From the NCBI RefSeq assembly GCF_000282475.1, contig NZ_AKJF01000076.1, forward strand, positions 17,845 to 81,844: a stretch of 64,000 nucleotides of DNA, read 5' to 3'. Made by a program: the position numbers and the translations under genes. The stretch comes from Pseudomonas sp. GM78. Its GTDB lineage: Bacteria; Pseudomonadota; Gammaproteobacteria; Pseudomonadales; Pseudomonadaceae. The notes beneath the pieces are model-generated. The model did no database searches. It was not told where the DNA came from and saw only the letters and a program-made list of their open reading frames with translations. Positions 21,274 through 52,059 of the stretch are shown here, one piece after another (the first letter of the stretch is position 1; every line of letters begins with the position of its first letter).

Positions 21274-22332
21274 TTATTCAGGCATCTGGTCGAGAAGGCG
21301 CTCTTCGAGTCGTGCTCGTTCCCGATCCAGTTCCGCTCGCAGCTCATCCTCGCTCGGTAGTACTAACTTGTATTTGCTGGCGAAGAGTTGCTCATTGCCC
21401 TGTAGGACCGAGTAGCGCACTACCGAATCGTTTTTCTGCGCACAGAGAATAATGCCGACTGTGGGCCCGTCTTCCTCGCTGCGTTTGAGATCGTCATACA
21501 TGCGCACATACATGTCCATCTGCCCCACATCCTGATGTGTCAATTCACCGCGCTTGAGATCGAAAATGACAAAACATTTGAGCAGGTAGTTGTAGAACAC
21601 CAGATCGATGTAGAAGTCTCTACCTTCGGTACTGATGCGTTGCTGGCGGGCAATGAAAGCGAACCCCTTGCCCAGCTCAAGCAGGAAACCCTGAAGTTGT
21701 TCGATCAAGGCCTGTTCGAGTCTGGTTTCCAAAACGATTCCGGTATTGGGTAGGCCCAAGAACTCCAGCATCACGGGATCCCGGATGAAATCCCGGGGGT
21801 CATTGCTCATTGTGTTGATGTTGGAGGCGGCCTCTGCCATGACGGCGCATTTGTCACGACTCATCAGGAGGCGTTCGTAGTAGAGCGTGTTGATCTGGCG
21901 CTCCAGACTGCGGCTTGACCAGTTTTGGTCAGCTGATTCGTCCATGTACCACTTGCGTGCCTTCTCGTTGTCCACGCGCAGAAGCCGGCGGTAGTGCGTC
22001 CAGCTCAATTCGAGGCGCAGTGCGTCTCGAATTGGAAATGCCTGATAGAACAGGCGCATTTTCCGCAAGTTGGTTTCGTCAAAGCCCTTCCCAAACTCCA
22101 CTGTCAGCACCTTCGCAAGTGTTGCCAGCAACTGCTTGCCGTAAACCGCGCGCCGGGAGCCATTTTGTTCAAACTCCACGATATGTCGTCCGATTTGCCA
22201 GTAGGTTTGTACCTGGGCGGTATCGACAGCTCGCTGCAGATTCTGCCGTGCCTGGCGAATCAACTCACCAAGATTGCCAAGCAGTGAGGTGATTTGTGGG
22301 TCTTGTGTGTCATCGGGTATGAGGGCGCTCAT
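21274..22332 (-). CDS. PDDEXK nuclease domain protein (YhcG/DUF1016 family)
   Basis: A 352-residue protein. The N-terminal half is the DUF1016 helical domain (TYWQIGRHIVEFEQNGSRRA, ELSWTHYRRLLRV, WSSRSLERQINTLYYERL). The C-terminal half is a PD-(D/E)XK nuclease fold with D243 (DFYIDLVFYN) and D258/K260 (VIFDLK). This family is found in accessory regions and is often linked to restriction systems or mobile elements, but it also occurs alone as here. There is no methyltransferase or toxin-antitoxin partner beside it. The full active-site set suggests a working nuclease; the target is unknown. Confidence 0.88.
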   Translation of the reverse strand: MSALIPDDTQDPQITSLLGNLGELIRQARQNLQRAVDTAQVQTYWQIGRHIVEFEQNGSRRAVYGKQLLATLAKVLTVEFGKGFDETNLRKMRLFYQAFPIRDALRLELSWTHYRRLLRVDNEKARKWYMDESADQNWSSRSLERQINTLYYERLLMSRDKCAVMAEAASNINTMSNDPRDFIRDPVMLEFLGLPNTGIVLETRLEQALIEQLQGFLLELGKGFAFIARQQRISTEGRDFYIDLVFYNYLLKCFVIFDLKRGELTHQDVGQMDMYVRMYDDLKRSEEDGPTVGIILCAQKNDSVVRYSVLQGNEQLFASKYKLVLPSEDELRAELDRERARLEERLLDQMPE

Positions 22333-49078: not shown

Positions 49079-49093
49079 TCTGCGCTGCTGAAA

Positions 49094-49156
49094 ATCGCGG
49101 GCAAGCCCGCTCCCACAGGATTGTGCAAAACCTGTGGGAGCGGGCTTGCCCGCGAT
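49094..49156. repeat. Compact REP pair after secB
   Basis: ATCGCGGGCAAGCCCGCTCC and GGAGCGGGCTTGCCCGCGAT, each within a perfect inverted copy, with only 11 nt between the halves. It follows the secB stop by 15 nt and precedes the 3' end of trmL, and may protect or end both messages. Confidence 0.9.
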
Positions 49157-49185
49157 TGTTTCTGTCAGGCGAAAATGATTTCGGA

Positions 49186-49641
49186 CTACTTGAAGTCGTT
49201 CTGCCGCCAGGCTTCGTACACGGCGACGGCCACGGTGTTGGACAGGTTCAGGCTGCGGCAGCCTTCGCGCATCGGCAGGCGCAGGCGTTGTTCGGCGGGC
49301 AGGGCGTCGAGCACTTCGGCGGGCAGGCCACGGCTTTCCGGGCCGAACAGGAACGCATCGCCAGGGGCGAAACTCACGTCGTGAAACGGCCGCGAGCCCT
49401 TGGTGGTGAAGGCGAACAACCGCGGATGACCGAGGCTTTCCAGGCAGCTGGCCAGGTCCGCATGGCGTTGCAGAGTGGCATACTCGTGGTAGTCGAGGCC
49501 CGCCCGGCGCAGGCGCTTGTCGTCCATCTCGAAGCCCAGCGGTTCGATCAAATGCAGGTGGCAGCCACTGTTGGCGCACAGCCTGATAACGTTGCCGGTG
49601 TTCGGCGGAATTTCTGGTTGGAAAAGGATGACGTGAAACAT
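49186..49641 (-). CDS. trmL: tRNA (cytidine(34)-2'-O)-methyltransferase
   Basis: A 151-residue SPOUT methyltransferase that modifies the wobble base of tRNA-Leu. MFHVILFQPEIPPNTGNVIR is the conserved start. LFGPESRGLP and LRLPMREGCRSLNLSNTVAV form the trefoil-knot cofactor site. A longer frame continuing upstream was rejected. Its ATG shares a CATG with the ATG proposed for the divergent gene. Confidence 0.96.
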   Translation of the reverse strand: MFHVILFQPEIPPNTGNVIRLCANSGCHLHLIEPLGFEMDDKRLRRAGLDYHEYATLQRHADLASCLESLGHPRLFAFTTKGSRPFHDVSFAPGDAFLFGPESRGLPAEVLDALPAEQRLRLPMREGCRSLNLSNTVAVAVYEAWRQNDFK

Positions 49642-50080
49642 GCACGGCTCCGAAGGTAGAGATGAGCGGCATTCTACGCCGCAAGCCGACCCTCGTTCGA
49701 AACTATTCCCGCGTGTGATGGCTTCGCTGGCAATCGTGGGGGTGATGGTGGGGTTGATGATCGGTCGCCTGACCACCCCCGACCCCAGCCAATTGCAACA
49801 AATCGAAGTGACTGGTGACGGGTTGGTGGTGTGGTTCAACAATGAACCCAAGACCCACGGCGAGATCGTGGAAGGCAGTGTCGCGCTGTTGTTCGAGGCG
49901 CAAGGCACGGCGCAGAAAGGCCAGCTCAAGCTCAACGGCAAGGATGTGAACTGGCGAACGCGATTGAGTGACGAGGGATTGTTGCTGACGCTGGTGGCGG
50001 CCCGTCCCCTTCAGGGGGAGTGGGCCGGCAGCGAGGTCGATGACCGCTGGCGGCTGGAGATCCATCTCCGGGAGCAATAA
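49640..50080 (+). CDS. Membrane-anchored hypothetical protein
   Basis: A protein of up to 146 residues with one membrane helix (about 26-43, VMASLAIVGVMVGLMIGR) and a periplasmic domain (VTGDGLVVWFNNEPKTHGEI, LNGKDVNWRTRLSDEGLLL). In position it corresponds to the small gene between ntrC and trmL in P. aeruginosa (PA5126). The start is uncertain: the ATG at 49640 would share a CATG with the trmL start, while the ATG at 49718 begins right at the membrane helix. No function is known. The stop at 50078-50080 directly abuts the end of the sRNA modules on the other strand. Confidence 0.75.
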   Translation: MHGSEGRDERHSTPQADPRSKLFPRVMASLAIVGVMVGLMIGRLTTPDPSQLQQIEVTGDGLVVWFNNEPKTHGEIVEGSVALLFEAQGTAQKGQLKLNGKDVNWRTRLSDEGLLLTLVAARPLQGEWAGSEVDDRWRLEIHLREQ

Positions 50081-50303
50081 AAGAGGGAATCCCCGGCCTG
50101 CCTGTACCAAGGTCCCCAAAACGGGAGGGTTCGCGCATCGCGTCTGAACCCGGTGTAAAGAGGGAATCCCCGGCCTGCCTGTACCAAGGACCCCAAAACG
50201 GGAAGGCTCGTCGCTTGTGCGGTGTGAGCCCGGTGTAAAGAGGGGAATCCCCGGCCTGCCTGTACCAAGGTCCCCGAAACTGGGTGGTGATCTGAATCAC
50301 TGA
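50081..50303 (-). ncRNA. nrsZ: NrsZ-like nitrogen-regulated sRNA with three tandem modules
   Basis: Minus-strand RNA predicted to start near 50303, 12 nt after the sigma-54 element at 50313-50329. Three tandem modules of about 65, 80 and 77 nt follow (units beginning at 50238, 50158 and 50081 on the plus strand), each with a hairpin followed by a shared stretch containing ACCTTGGTACAGGCAGGCC and a pyrimidine-rich end. The hairpin stems differ but stay paired: GTGAT/ATCAC (50287-50300), GGCTC/GAGCC (50205-50230) and GGGTTC/GAACCC (50127-50151). P. aeruginosa NrsZ is also next to ntrC, needs NtrBC and RpoN, and is processed into three similar modules. The 3' end is approximate. Confidence 0.82.
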
Positions 50304-50312
50304 TGGGACTAT

Positions 50313-50330
50313 TGCAGGGCGCGTGCCAGG
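50313..50330 (-). promoter_or_regulatory. Sigma-54 promoter of the NrsZ-like sRNA
   Basis: On the minus strand CCTGGCACGCGCCCTGCA matches TGGCACG-N4-TTGC at all but one position, with GG and GC 12 nt apart. The expected start falls at the first hairpin of the sRNA. Confidence 0.85.
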
Positions 50331-50368
50331 TTTTAACAAGTTGAAACAGAAAGTCGCGTAGAAAAGCT

Positions 50369-50403
50369 GAAAGCCCCGTAATCCGGGGCTTTCGTGTTTT
50401 TTC
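50369..50403 (+). terminator. Terminator-like hairpin between the sRNA and ntrC
   Basis: AAAGCCCCG and CGGGGCTTT pair around TAATC and are followed by CGTGTTTTTT. On the plus strand it could end the transcript of the 49640 gene. It lies about 40 nt upstream of the sRNA promoter. Confidence 0.75.
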
Positions 50404-50504
50404 GATAGGGGTTCGATTGCGAATACAAGCGGGGTTTTGGTTCAGTTGCCGTGCGCGATTGCGGTTCACGGTGCCTTCAGGCGGTGCACGACAGGCCTCA
50501 AAAG

Positions 50505-50588
50505 CATCGCGGGCAAGCCATGCTCCTACAGGTCATGCGCCATTTCAAAACTAGCGCATAACCTGTAGGAGCATGGCTTGCCCGCGAT
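50505..50588. repeat. REP pair, GTAGGAGCATGGCTTGCC type
   Basis: ATCGCGGGCAAGCCATGCTC and GAGCATGGCTTGCCCGCGAT, with an inner CCTACAGGT / ACCTGTAGG pair, across about 35 nt. It lies between the ntrC 3' end and the sRNA promoter. The stem core differs from the GTGGGAGC type elsewhere in the window. Confidence 0.88.
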
Positions 50589-50622
50589 TGGATCTTAAGT
50601 GCGACGATAACTCTGAGGCTGT

Positions 50623-52059
50623 TTAGCCCTCATCCCCCTCATCATCATCCCCACCATCAACCTTCATCCCCAGCTCCTTGATCTTGCGAGTCAGGGTATT
50701 GCGCCCCCAGCCCAGCAACACGGCCGCATCGCGGCGGCGGCCGGCGGTGTGCTTGAGGGCGGTTTCGATCATGATCCGCTCGAAGGTCGGCACGGCGCTG
50801 TCCAGCAGGCTGGACTGACCGCGAGCCAGTGCCTGGTCGGCCCATTGGCGCAGCGCCTGTTCCCAGTTGGTCACCGGAGCCGAATCCTGCGGAAGGCTCA
50901 GCAACTCCGGTGGCAGGTCGCCGATATGCACTTCGCGACCCGACGCCATCACGGTGATCCAGCGGCACGTGTTCTCCAGCTGGCGCACATTGCCCGGCCA
51001 TGGCAGGTTTTTCAGGTATTCCTCGGTTTCGTTTTTCAGCAGCTTCGGCTCGACCGCCAGCTCCTGCGCGGCACGGCCGAGGAAGTGCTTGGCCAGGGTC
51101 GGGATATCTTCGCGGCGGTCCGACAGGCGCGGTATGTGGATGCGGATCACGTTGAGACGGTGGAACAAGTCTTCACGGAATTTCCCGGCATTCACCAGGG
51201 TTTCAAGGTTCTGGTGCGTGGCGGCGATGATCCGCACGTCCACCTTGACCGGGACGTGACCACCGACACGGTAGAACTCGCCATCGGCCAGGACCCGCAA
51301 CAATCGAGTCTGGGTGTCGGCCGGCATGTCGCCGATTTCATCGAGAAATAGCGTGCCCCCGTCCGCCTGCTCGAATCGCCCGCGACGCAGGTTGGCGGCG
51401 CCGGTGAACGCGCCTTTTTCGTGGCCGAACAGCTCGGACTCCATCAGGTCTTTCGGGATCGCCGCCATGTTCAATGCGATGAACGGCGAAGCAGCCCGCG
51501 GGCTGTGGCGATGCAGGGCGTGGGCCACCAGTTCTTTACCGGTGCCGGATTCGCCGTTGATCAGCACGGTGATGTTGGAGTGGCTCAAGCGCCCAATGGC
51601 GCGAAACACTTCCTGCATCGCTGGTGCTTCACCGATGATTTCCGGCGTGCGGGTCAGTGCGACCGGGACTTCCAGACCTTGTTGTTCCTGAGCATGCTGG
51701 TTCGCGCGTTTGACCAGGGAAACCGCTTCGTCGACATCGAACGGCTTGGGCAGGTATTCGAAGGCGCCGCCCTGATAGGACGCGACAGCGCTGTCCAGAT
51801 CGGAGTGCGCGGTCATGATGATCACTGGCAGCCGTGGGTGTTGCTCGCGAATCCGCGCCAGAAGGTCCAGGCCGCTGGCACCGGGCATGCGGATGTCGGA
51901 GATGATCACGTCCGGCTGCTGGCGCGCCAGGCGGCTCATCACGCCATCGGCGCTGTCGAAGCTTTGCGTGGTCATGCCTTCCTGCTGCAAGGCTTTTTCC
52001 AGGACCCAACGGATAGAACGGTCGTCATCGACGATCCACACGGTTTCACTACGGCTCAT
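50623..52059 (-). CDS. ntrC: Nitrogen regulation response regulator
   Basis: A 478-residue sigma-54 activator. The receiver domain (1-120) has phospho-acceptor D55 (VIISDIRMPG). The AAA+ domain (about 140-380) has Walker A GESGTGKE (169-176), the sigma-54 loop GAFTGA (216-221) and Walker B ADGGTLFLDEIGDM. The C-terminal Fis-type HTH is AVLLGWGRNTLTRKIKEL. It is phosphorylated by NtrB when nitrogen is short and switches on glnA and assimilation genes. It overlaps ntrB by 4 nt. Likely direct targets in the window: glnA and the sRNA. Confidence 0.97.
   Translation of the reverse strand: MSRSETVWIVDDDRSIRWVLEKALQQEGMTTQSFDSADGVMSRLARQQPDVIISDIRMPGASGLDLLARIREQHPRLPVIIMTAHSDLDSAVASYQGGAFEYLPKPFDVDEAVSLVKRANQHAQEQQGLEVPVALTRTPEIIGEAPAMQEVFRAIGRLSHSNITVLINGESGTGKELVAHALHRHSPRAASPFIALNMAAIPKDLMESELFGHEKGAFTGAANLRRGRFEQADGGTLFLDEIGDMPADTQTRLLRVLADGEFYRVGGHVPVKVDVRIIAATHQNLETLVNAGKFREDLFHRLNVIRIHIPRLSDRREDIPTLAKHFLGRAAQELAVEPKLLKNETEEYLKNLPWPGNVRQLENTCRWITVMASGREVHIGDLPPELLSLPQDSAPVTNWEQALRQWADQALARGQSSLLDSAVPTFERIMIETALKHTAGRRRDAAVLLGWGRNTLTRKIKELGMKVDGGDDDEGDEG

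Follow-up and report, generated by a model that had tools for sequence, protein, structure and literature searches.

An NrsZ small RNA of three hairpin modules downstream of ntrC in a Pseudomonas genome, and the variation of its module number across the genus

The window analysed here, a 64,000 nucleotide stretch of the Pseudomonas sp. GM78 genome, carries on its minus strand, just downstream of ntrC, a hairpin array that is a homologue of the small RNA NrsZ, an already known family. It is an ordinary three-module NrsZ, and the initial annotation was right in recognising it and wrong in its account of the module anatomy. Our overall reading, to which we give a probability of roughly four in five, is that the array would be expressed as an NtrC-controlled, sigma-54-dependent RNA of about 227 nt, that its three seed hairpins would be freed by cleavage, and that the number of modules would set the number of active units. 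The features of the region are as follows.

50623..52059, minus strand: ntrC (478 aa), with response regulator (receiver), sigma-54 activator and Fis-type HTH domains (Pfam)
50480..50489, minus strand: GTGCACCGCC, with one TGCACC (50488-50483), a putative NtrC half-site some 160 nt ahead of the -24 element
50369..50393: terminator-like stem readable on either strand, an inverted repeat flanked by T-runs, lying between ntrC and nrsZ
50314..50328, minus strand: sigma-54 -24/-12 core TGGCACG-N5-TGC (sequence match)
50280..50302, minus strand: leader with hairpin GTGAT/ATCAC, which only some relatives have
50242..50275, minus strand: module 1 hairpin, loop ACAGGCAG at 50256-50263
50195..50241, minus strand: U-rich tail and linker 1, variable hairpin GGCTC/GAGCC
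50161..50194, minus strand: module 2 hairpin, loop ACAGGCAG at 50175-50182
50118..50160, minus strand: U-rich tail and linker 2, variable hairpin GGGTTC/GAACCC
50084..50117, minus strand: module 3 hairpin, loop ACAGGCAG at 50098-50105
50076..50083, minus strand: predicted U-rich 3' end CTTTTATT, which overlaps the convergent gene's stop codon (50078-50080) in antisense
49640..50080, plus strand: convergent gene; its 146-aa product has a single hydrophobic segment, at the N-terminus, and no Pfam match

The Rfam covariance model of NrsZ, RF02695, matches 50286-50068 of the minus strand over model positions 1-236 of 236 with 147.5 bits (E 3.5e-37), above its gathering score of 76.9, and a genome-wide search found NrsZ at this one place. 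The identification made in the initial annotation is thus borne out by the covariance score together with the locus, the sigma-54 element, the three copies of the ACAGGCAG motif and the predicted length of about 227 nt. The array lies downstream of ntrC and ahead of a PA5126-type gene, so called from its position only; ntrB (a histidine kinase gene) and glnA are upstream of ntrC, and a SpoU methylase gene is downstream, beyond the convergent gene. Two long inverted repeats with GGCTTGCCCGCGAT ends, 93% and 97% complementary, are also present, 50506-50588 between ntrC and nrsZ and 49093-49157 before the SpoU methylase gene. The GGCTTGCCCGCGAT end motif (at most one mismatch) has 11 matches in the window, 0.09 being expected, and inverted repeats with such ends are presumably REP-like.

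Three tandem units do lie between ntrC and a small membrane-type gene, as had been proposed: copies of a direct repeat of 54 nt stand at 50080, 50157 and 50238, with spacings of 77 and 81, and the second and third are 94% and 81% identical to the first. Each unit contains a conserved hairpin with a 12-pair stem (sometimes with a bulge of 1-2 nt) and an 8-nt loop, ACAGGCAG, that is the same in all three modules (first bases 50263, 50182 and 50105), followed by a U-rich tail, and linker hairpins of variable sequence lie between the units. This main hairpin, present in every unit, was overlooked in the initial annotation; the stems named there all exist, but GTGAT/ATCAC belongs to the leader and GGCTC/GAGCC and GGGTTC/GAACCC to the linkers, and none of them to the modules. 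The accompanying argument that bases had changed on both sides of these stems is fair for linker 1 against linker 2 and fails for the leader, which is outside the repeat, and the suggestion that different loops might mean different targets falls because the three conserved loops are identical.

The case for structure is carried by covariation and conservation, not by folding energy: the MFE of the whole RNA is not unusual (z = 0.00), single folded stretches and modules have z values of 0.02 to -0.98, and the MFE fold of the whole RNA favours long-range pairing of module 1 with module 3. We aligned 159 modules, 96 of them distinct, cut from loci L001-L061 (alignment A1). Among the 96 distinct modules 95.5% of the cells of the seven-pair inner stem are paired, and 18 of its cells are double changes, compared with a shuffled mean of 1.9 and with none of 500 shuffles as high; two weak measures, the number of pairs changed on both sides (3, with 45 of 500 shuffles as high) and of further pair types (9, with 408 of 500 as high), discriminate less. 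The outer stem, taken in the best of four bulge registers, has all five pairs in 93 of the 96 modules and four of five in the remaining 3, and its changes include GGGGA/TCCCC to GGGAA/TTCCC. The linker hairpins are real as well. At most 3 of 60 shuffles were equally stable for 132 of 166 distinct linker sequences (from related loci) and for 14 of 22 leaders, and in 138 linkers a five-pair consensus stem covaries among alternatives such as G-C, A-U and C-G, each position being paired in 112 to 130 of the 138; shuffled-column linker alignments, a mild control, gave no structure.

The loop is invariant within A1 by construction, since the modules were cut around ACAGGCAG. A fairer figure, though from a model itself trained on such modules, is that ACAGGCAG forms the loop in 173 of 176 model matches from 68 loci and CCAGGCAG in the other 3; CAGGCAG is present in 176 of 176, the model having been trained on such loops. 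Of all parts of the RNA, this near-invariant loop is the likeliest to be the active one. It might instead be a structural or processing signal only, with target specificity carried by the variable linkers, as the different-loops idea implied, and the linkers are indeed structured and differ among species; we consider this very improbable, since the loop is conserved and linker sequence is not, since single-module versions have no linker, and since in PAO1 the cited passages assign action on rhlA to the first 60 nt of NrsZ and to ACAGGCAG (PMC9308961, PMC8395346, PMC6321483). In three loci of genus code g3 (L074 1344-1392, L075 1334-1382 and L076 1257-1305) the last module has the loop CCAGGCAG, and GGACCAGGCAGG replaces GGTACAGGCAGG.

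The sigma-54 promoter of the initial annotation is present (core 50328-50314), once and ahead of the whole array, not before each unit. The exact pattern TGGCACG-N5-TGCW occurs once in the window, as the nrsZ element; with at most one mismatch there are 6 matches where 4.48 are expected, which leaves the pattern by itself without significance; what counts is its constant position among relatives. TGGYAY-N6-TGC precedes a module in 129 of 129 loci, 49-72 nt before the module's loop (60 of these are named loci selected partly by TGGCAC, and 69, from 68 genomes with one used twice, were not promoter-selected). As judged by sequence, the promoter is thus of the RpoN type. From the -12 C at 50314 the start is predicted at 50302, within one base of the 50303 proposed earlier, and the RNA would run from about 50302 to about 50076, some 227 nt. 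The most enriched upstream 6-mer among relatives is TGCACC/GGTGCA, which we take to be an NtrC-type half-site; it is found in 55 of 87 regions and in 13.1 in shuffles, the 87 being 123 regions minus near-duplicates, from which shared ancestry is not wholly removed. The window has one clear TGCACC copy and no pair, with single GCAC copies nearby.

At the other end, hairpin 3 and the U-rich CTTTTATT probably form the terminator. A consensus terminator scan of both strands of 49600-50650 found 2 sites, with 1.2 expected by chance, and did not call this end. The stem, at 50368-50394 in the plus-strand call, would end ntrC on the minus strand and possibly the mRNA of the convergent gene on the plus strand; it is the sole plus-strand terminator-like site in the scanned stretch and lies beyond nrsZ, so the convergent mRNA may read through nrsZ as antisense. 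On a stronger version of this view the array would be mainly an antisense or 3'UTR element belonging to the convergent gene, with that gene's mRNA extending to this stem. The position of that site (with the same proviso of 2 found and 1.2 expected) and the presence of the gene just downstream in 57 of 68 loci agree with this, but the promoter points the opposite way and the gene was not found beside the array in 11 of the 68 (L036, L037, L038, L040, L041, L042, L044, L048, L067, L072 and L073), and we think it highly unlikely as the principal function; an antisense role may exist besides the main one.

The covariance search across Pseudomonas that the initial annotation had proposed places the family in nearly all of the genus, RF02695 matching 291 of 298 genomes at E <= 0.001 (203 above the cut-off and 88 below it). 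The assignment of these genomes to Pseudomonas comes from the named loci, with which the window groups. A one-module model, R1, likewise found modules in 291 of the 298 and none in 7, of which 4 are less than 90% complete and 3 are 99-100% complete. Module numbers of one, two, three and four were counted in 79, 55, 119 and 26 genomes, respectively, and of five, six, seven and eight in 6, 1, 4 and 1; these are lower bounds because of the strict filters. Counting modules within single arrays gave the same number as the R1 table for 61 of 61 genomes (loci L001-L061), and in genome G141 all eight modules stand together in a single array preceded by a promoter-like element. Within the family, matches occur in 232 of 298 genomes and in 13 of 19 genera; under the strict filters 15 of 341 genomes of the order match, all of them inside the window's family, and no modules were found outside it. 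A named scan gave at least 120 stretches, and among the 80 loci listed, 20 records belong to other organisms; none of these 20 matches R1 at E 0.01, and they resemble chance hits.

Thirty loci from weakly scoring genomes (a chosen set, from 35 genomes of which 3 were known to lack a match) have one module in 26 and two in 4, and 28 loci from genomes below the cut-off have one in 26 and two in 2. Single-module versions lack a linker and keep the same promoter and loop, so a single hairpin can be the whole RNA, in agreement with the reported function of the first 60 nt in PAO1. Some of them (L036, L067) have no convergent gene, and an ordinary terminator-like stem comes after the module. NtrC is encoded upstream on the same strand in 48 of 68 loci, and the other 20 have no ntrC match within the flanks examined. 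In 54 loci the convergent gene and the last exact loop are 28-57 nt apart; the distance is 108-110 nt in L074-L076, where the variant-loop module lies in between. In five loci with a single-module NrsZ (L036, L037, L044, L067 and L073) none of ntrC, the convergent gene and the SpoU methylase gene was found in the examined flanks; perhaps the module was relocated there, or its neighbourhood was rearranged.

On a tree of NtrC proteins (128 loci, of which 43 had no NtrC match and 3 were removed because they were short or had the array at a locus end, leaving 82) module number changes at least 23 times, compared with 45.1 for shuffled labels, a soft count because no more than 4 of the 79 inner branches carry a star. 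The window's host appears nearest to fluorescens-type species on this weakly supported tree. The range of one to eight modules across the genus is new here, and might be the one result that a specialist does not know; we found no statement of variable module number in the literature searched, and the original NrsZ paper may report part of it. The phrase "highly conserved among Pseudomonads" (PMC8395346) masks this variation. The natural series of one to eight modules, with a like promoter throughout, offers a ready test of whether more copies of a seed hairpin increase regulatory output.

We infer the following mechanism. Under nitrogen limitation NtrC bound upstream would activate the sigma-54 promoter to make one RNA, RNase cleavage, perhaps within the linkers, would free single-hairpin units, and each unit would act by pairing of its loop with CUGCCUGU-like sites in mRNA leaders. 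If each unit acts through its own loop, the copy number of modules would set the dose, that is, the active units per transcript. Each module is most likely one NtrC-controlled seed hairpin. More tentatively, NrsZ could be a copy-number-evolving RNA, a minimal single hairpin tandem-duplicated in several Pseudomonas lineages to at most eight copies, whose number is an inherited dial of dose or avidity and which possibly titrates a protein; we regard this extension as conceivable and rather doubtful.

A partial search for CUGCCUGU leader sites, two of which were followed into relatives, found no conserved mRNA target. The genome has 301 copies of the pattern CTGCCTGT (150 + 151; 68 + 61 for the reversed pattern as control) and 114 with an ATG within 30 nt (control 37), an excess that is no evidence of targets because the control does not allow for codon use; the contexts read were 30 genome-wide loci, 30 near-ATG loci (15 stretches) and one window site. 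Two candidates were rejected. A gene for an NMT1-type substrate-binding protein is present in 4 of 79 genomes, and the site is absent from orthologues L314-L316. For an MFS transporter with matches in 14 of 59 genomes, some of them 40-44% identical, the reading covered five close orthologues: L321 and L323 retain the site, L322, L324 and L325 have it in altered form, and it drifts inside a terminator-like stem. In the window a CTGCCTGT site starts 30 nt ahead of the start codon of a YhcG/DUF1016-type PDDEXK nuclease gene (21274-22332, minus strand; Pfam; PADLOC candidate defence family PDC-S02, E 1.3e-146).

The repeated hairpins might, rather than pairing with mRNA, titrate an RNA-binding protein in the manner of CsrB or RsmZ, each module then offering one binding site. 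One to eight copies of a fixed stem with identical loops would suit such a sponge, as would the constancy of CAGGCAG (with the training of the model in mind) and the outcome of the partial target search. The binding motif of RsmA/RsmE includes GGA, and the loop has none, so these are unlikely partners. According to the reviews, rhlA is activated post-transcriptionally, apparently via its leader, and we judge titration unlikely in comparison with the seed-hairpin reading.

Among known systems, CsrB and RsmX/Y/Z are multi-site sponge RNAs with GGA in their hairpin loops. NrsZ resembles them in the repetition of similar hairpins in varying number and differs from them in having no GGA in the loop (ACAGGCAG in all three), in its sigma-54 type promoter and in the existence of a single-hairpin form. 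CrcZ, likewise an sRNA from a two-component system for nutrient control, sequesters Hfq/Crc through A-rich motifs, in contrast to the hairpin loops of NrsZ. In the passage cited, CrcZ is described as a CbrA/B-activated Pseudomonas sRNA (PMC9308961). GlnZ of enterics is, like NrsZ, a nitrogen-limitation sRNA of the glnA-ntrBC region, and is described in the cited part of PMC9731577 as released from the glnA 3'UTR, whereas NrsZ is made downstream of ntrC. An Hfq CLIP-seq study lists NrsZ with the sRNAs whose enrichment was higher in planktonic cells, a difference short of significance (PMC6890931). The closest comparison is with NrsZ of P. aeruginosa PAO1 itself (RF02695, between ntrC and PA5126), which has the locus, the sigma-54 element and ACAGGCAG in common with the window; its leader and linker sequences need not match those found here. 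Its length is given in the cited passage as at least 226 nt (PMC9308961), compared with about 227 nt predicted here, and the Rfam model spans three modules, like the window array. Reviews state that NrsZ is induced by NtrB/C with RpoN and is processed (PMC9308961, PMC8395346, PMC6321483), and processing to species of about 40 and 140 nt and activation of rhlA are features of the family.
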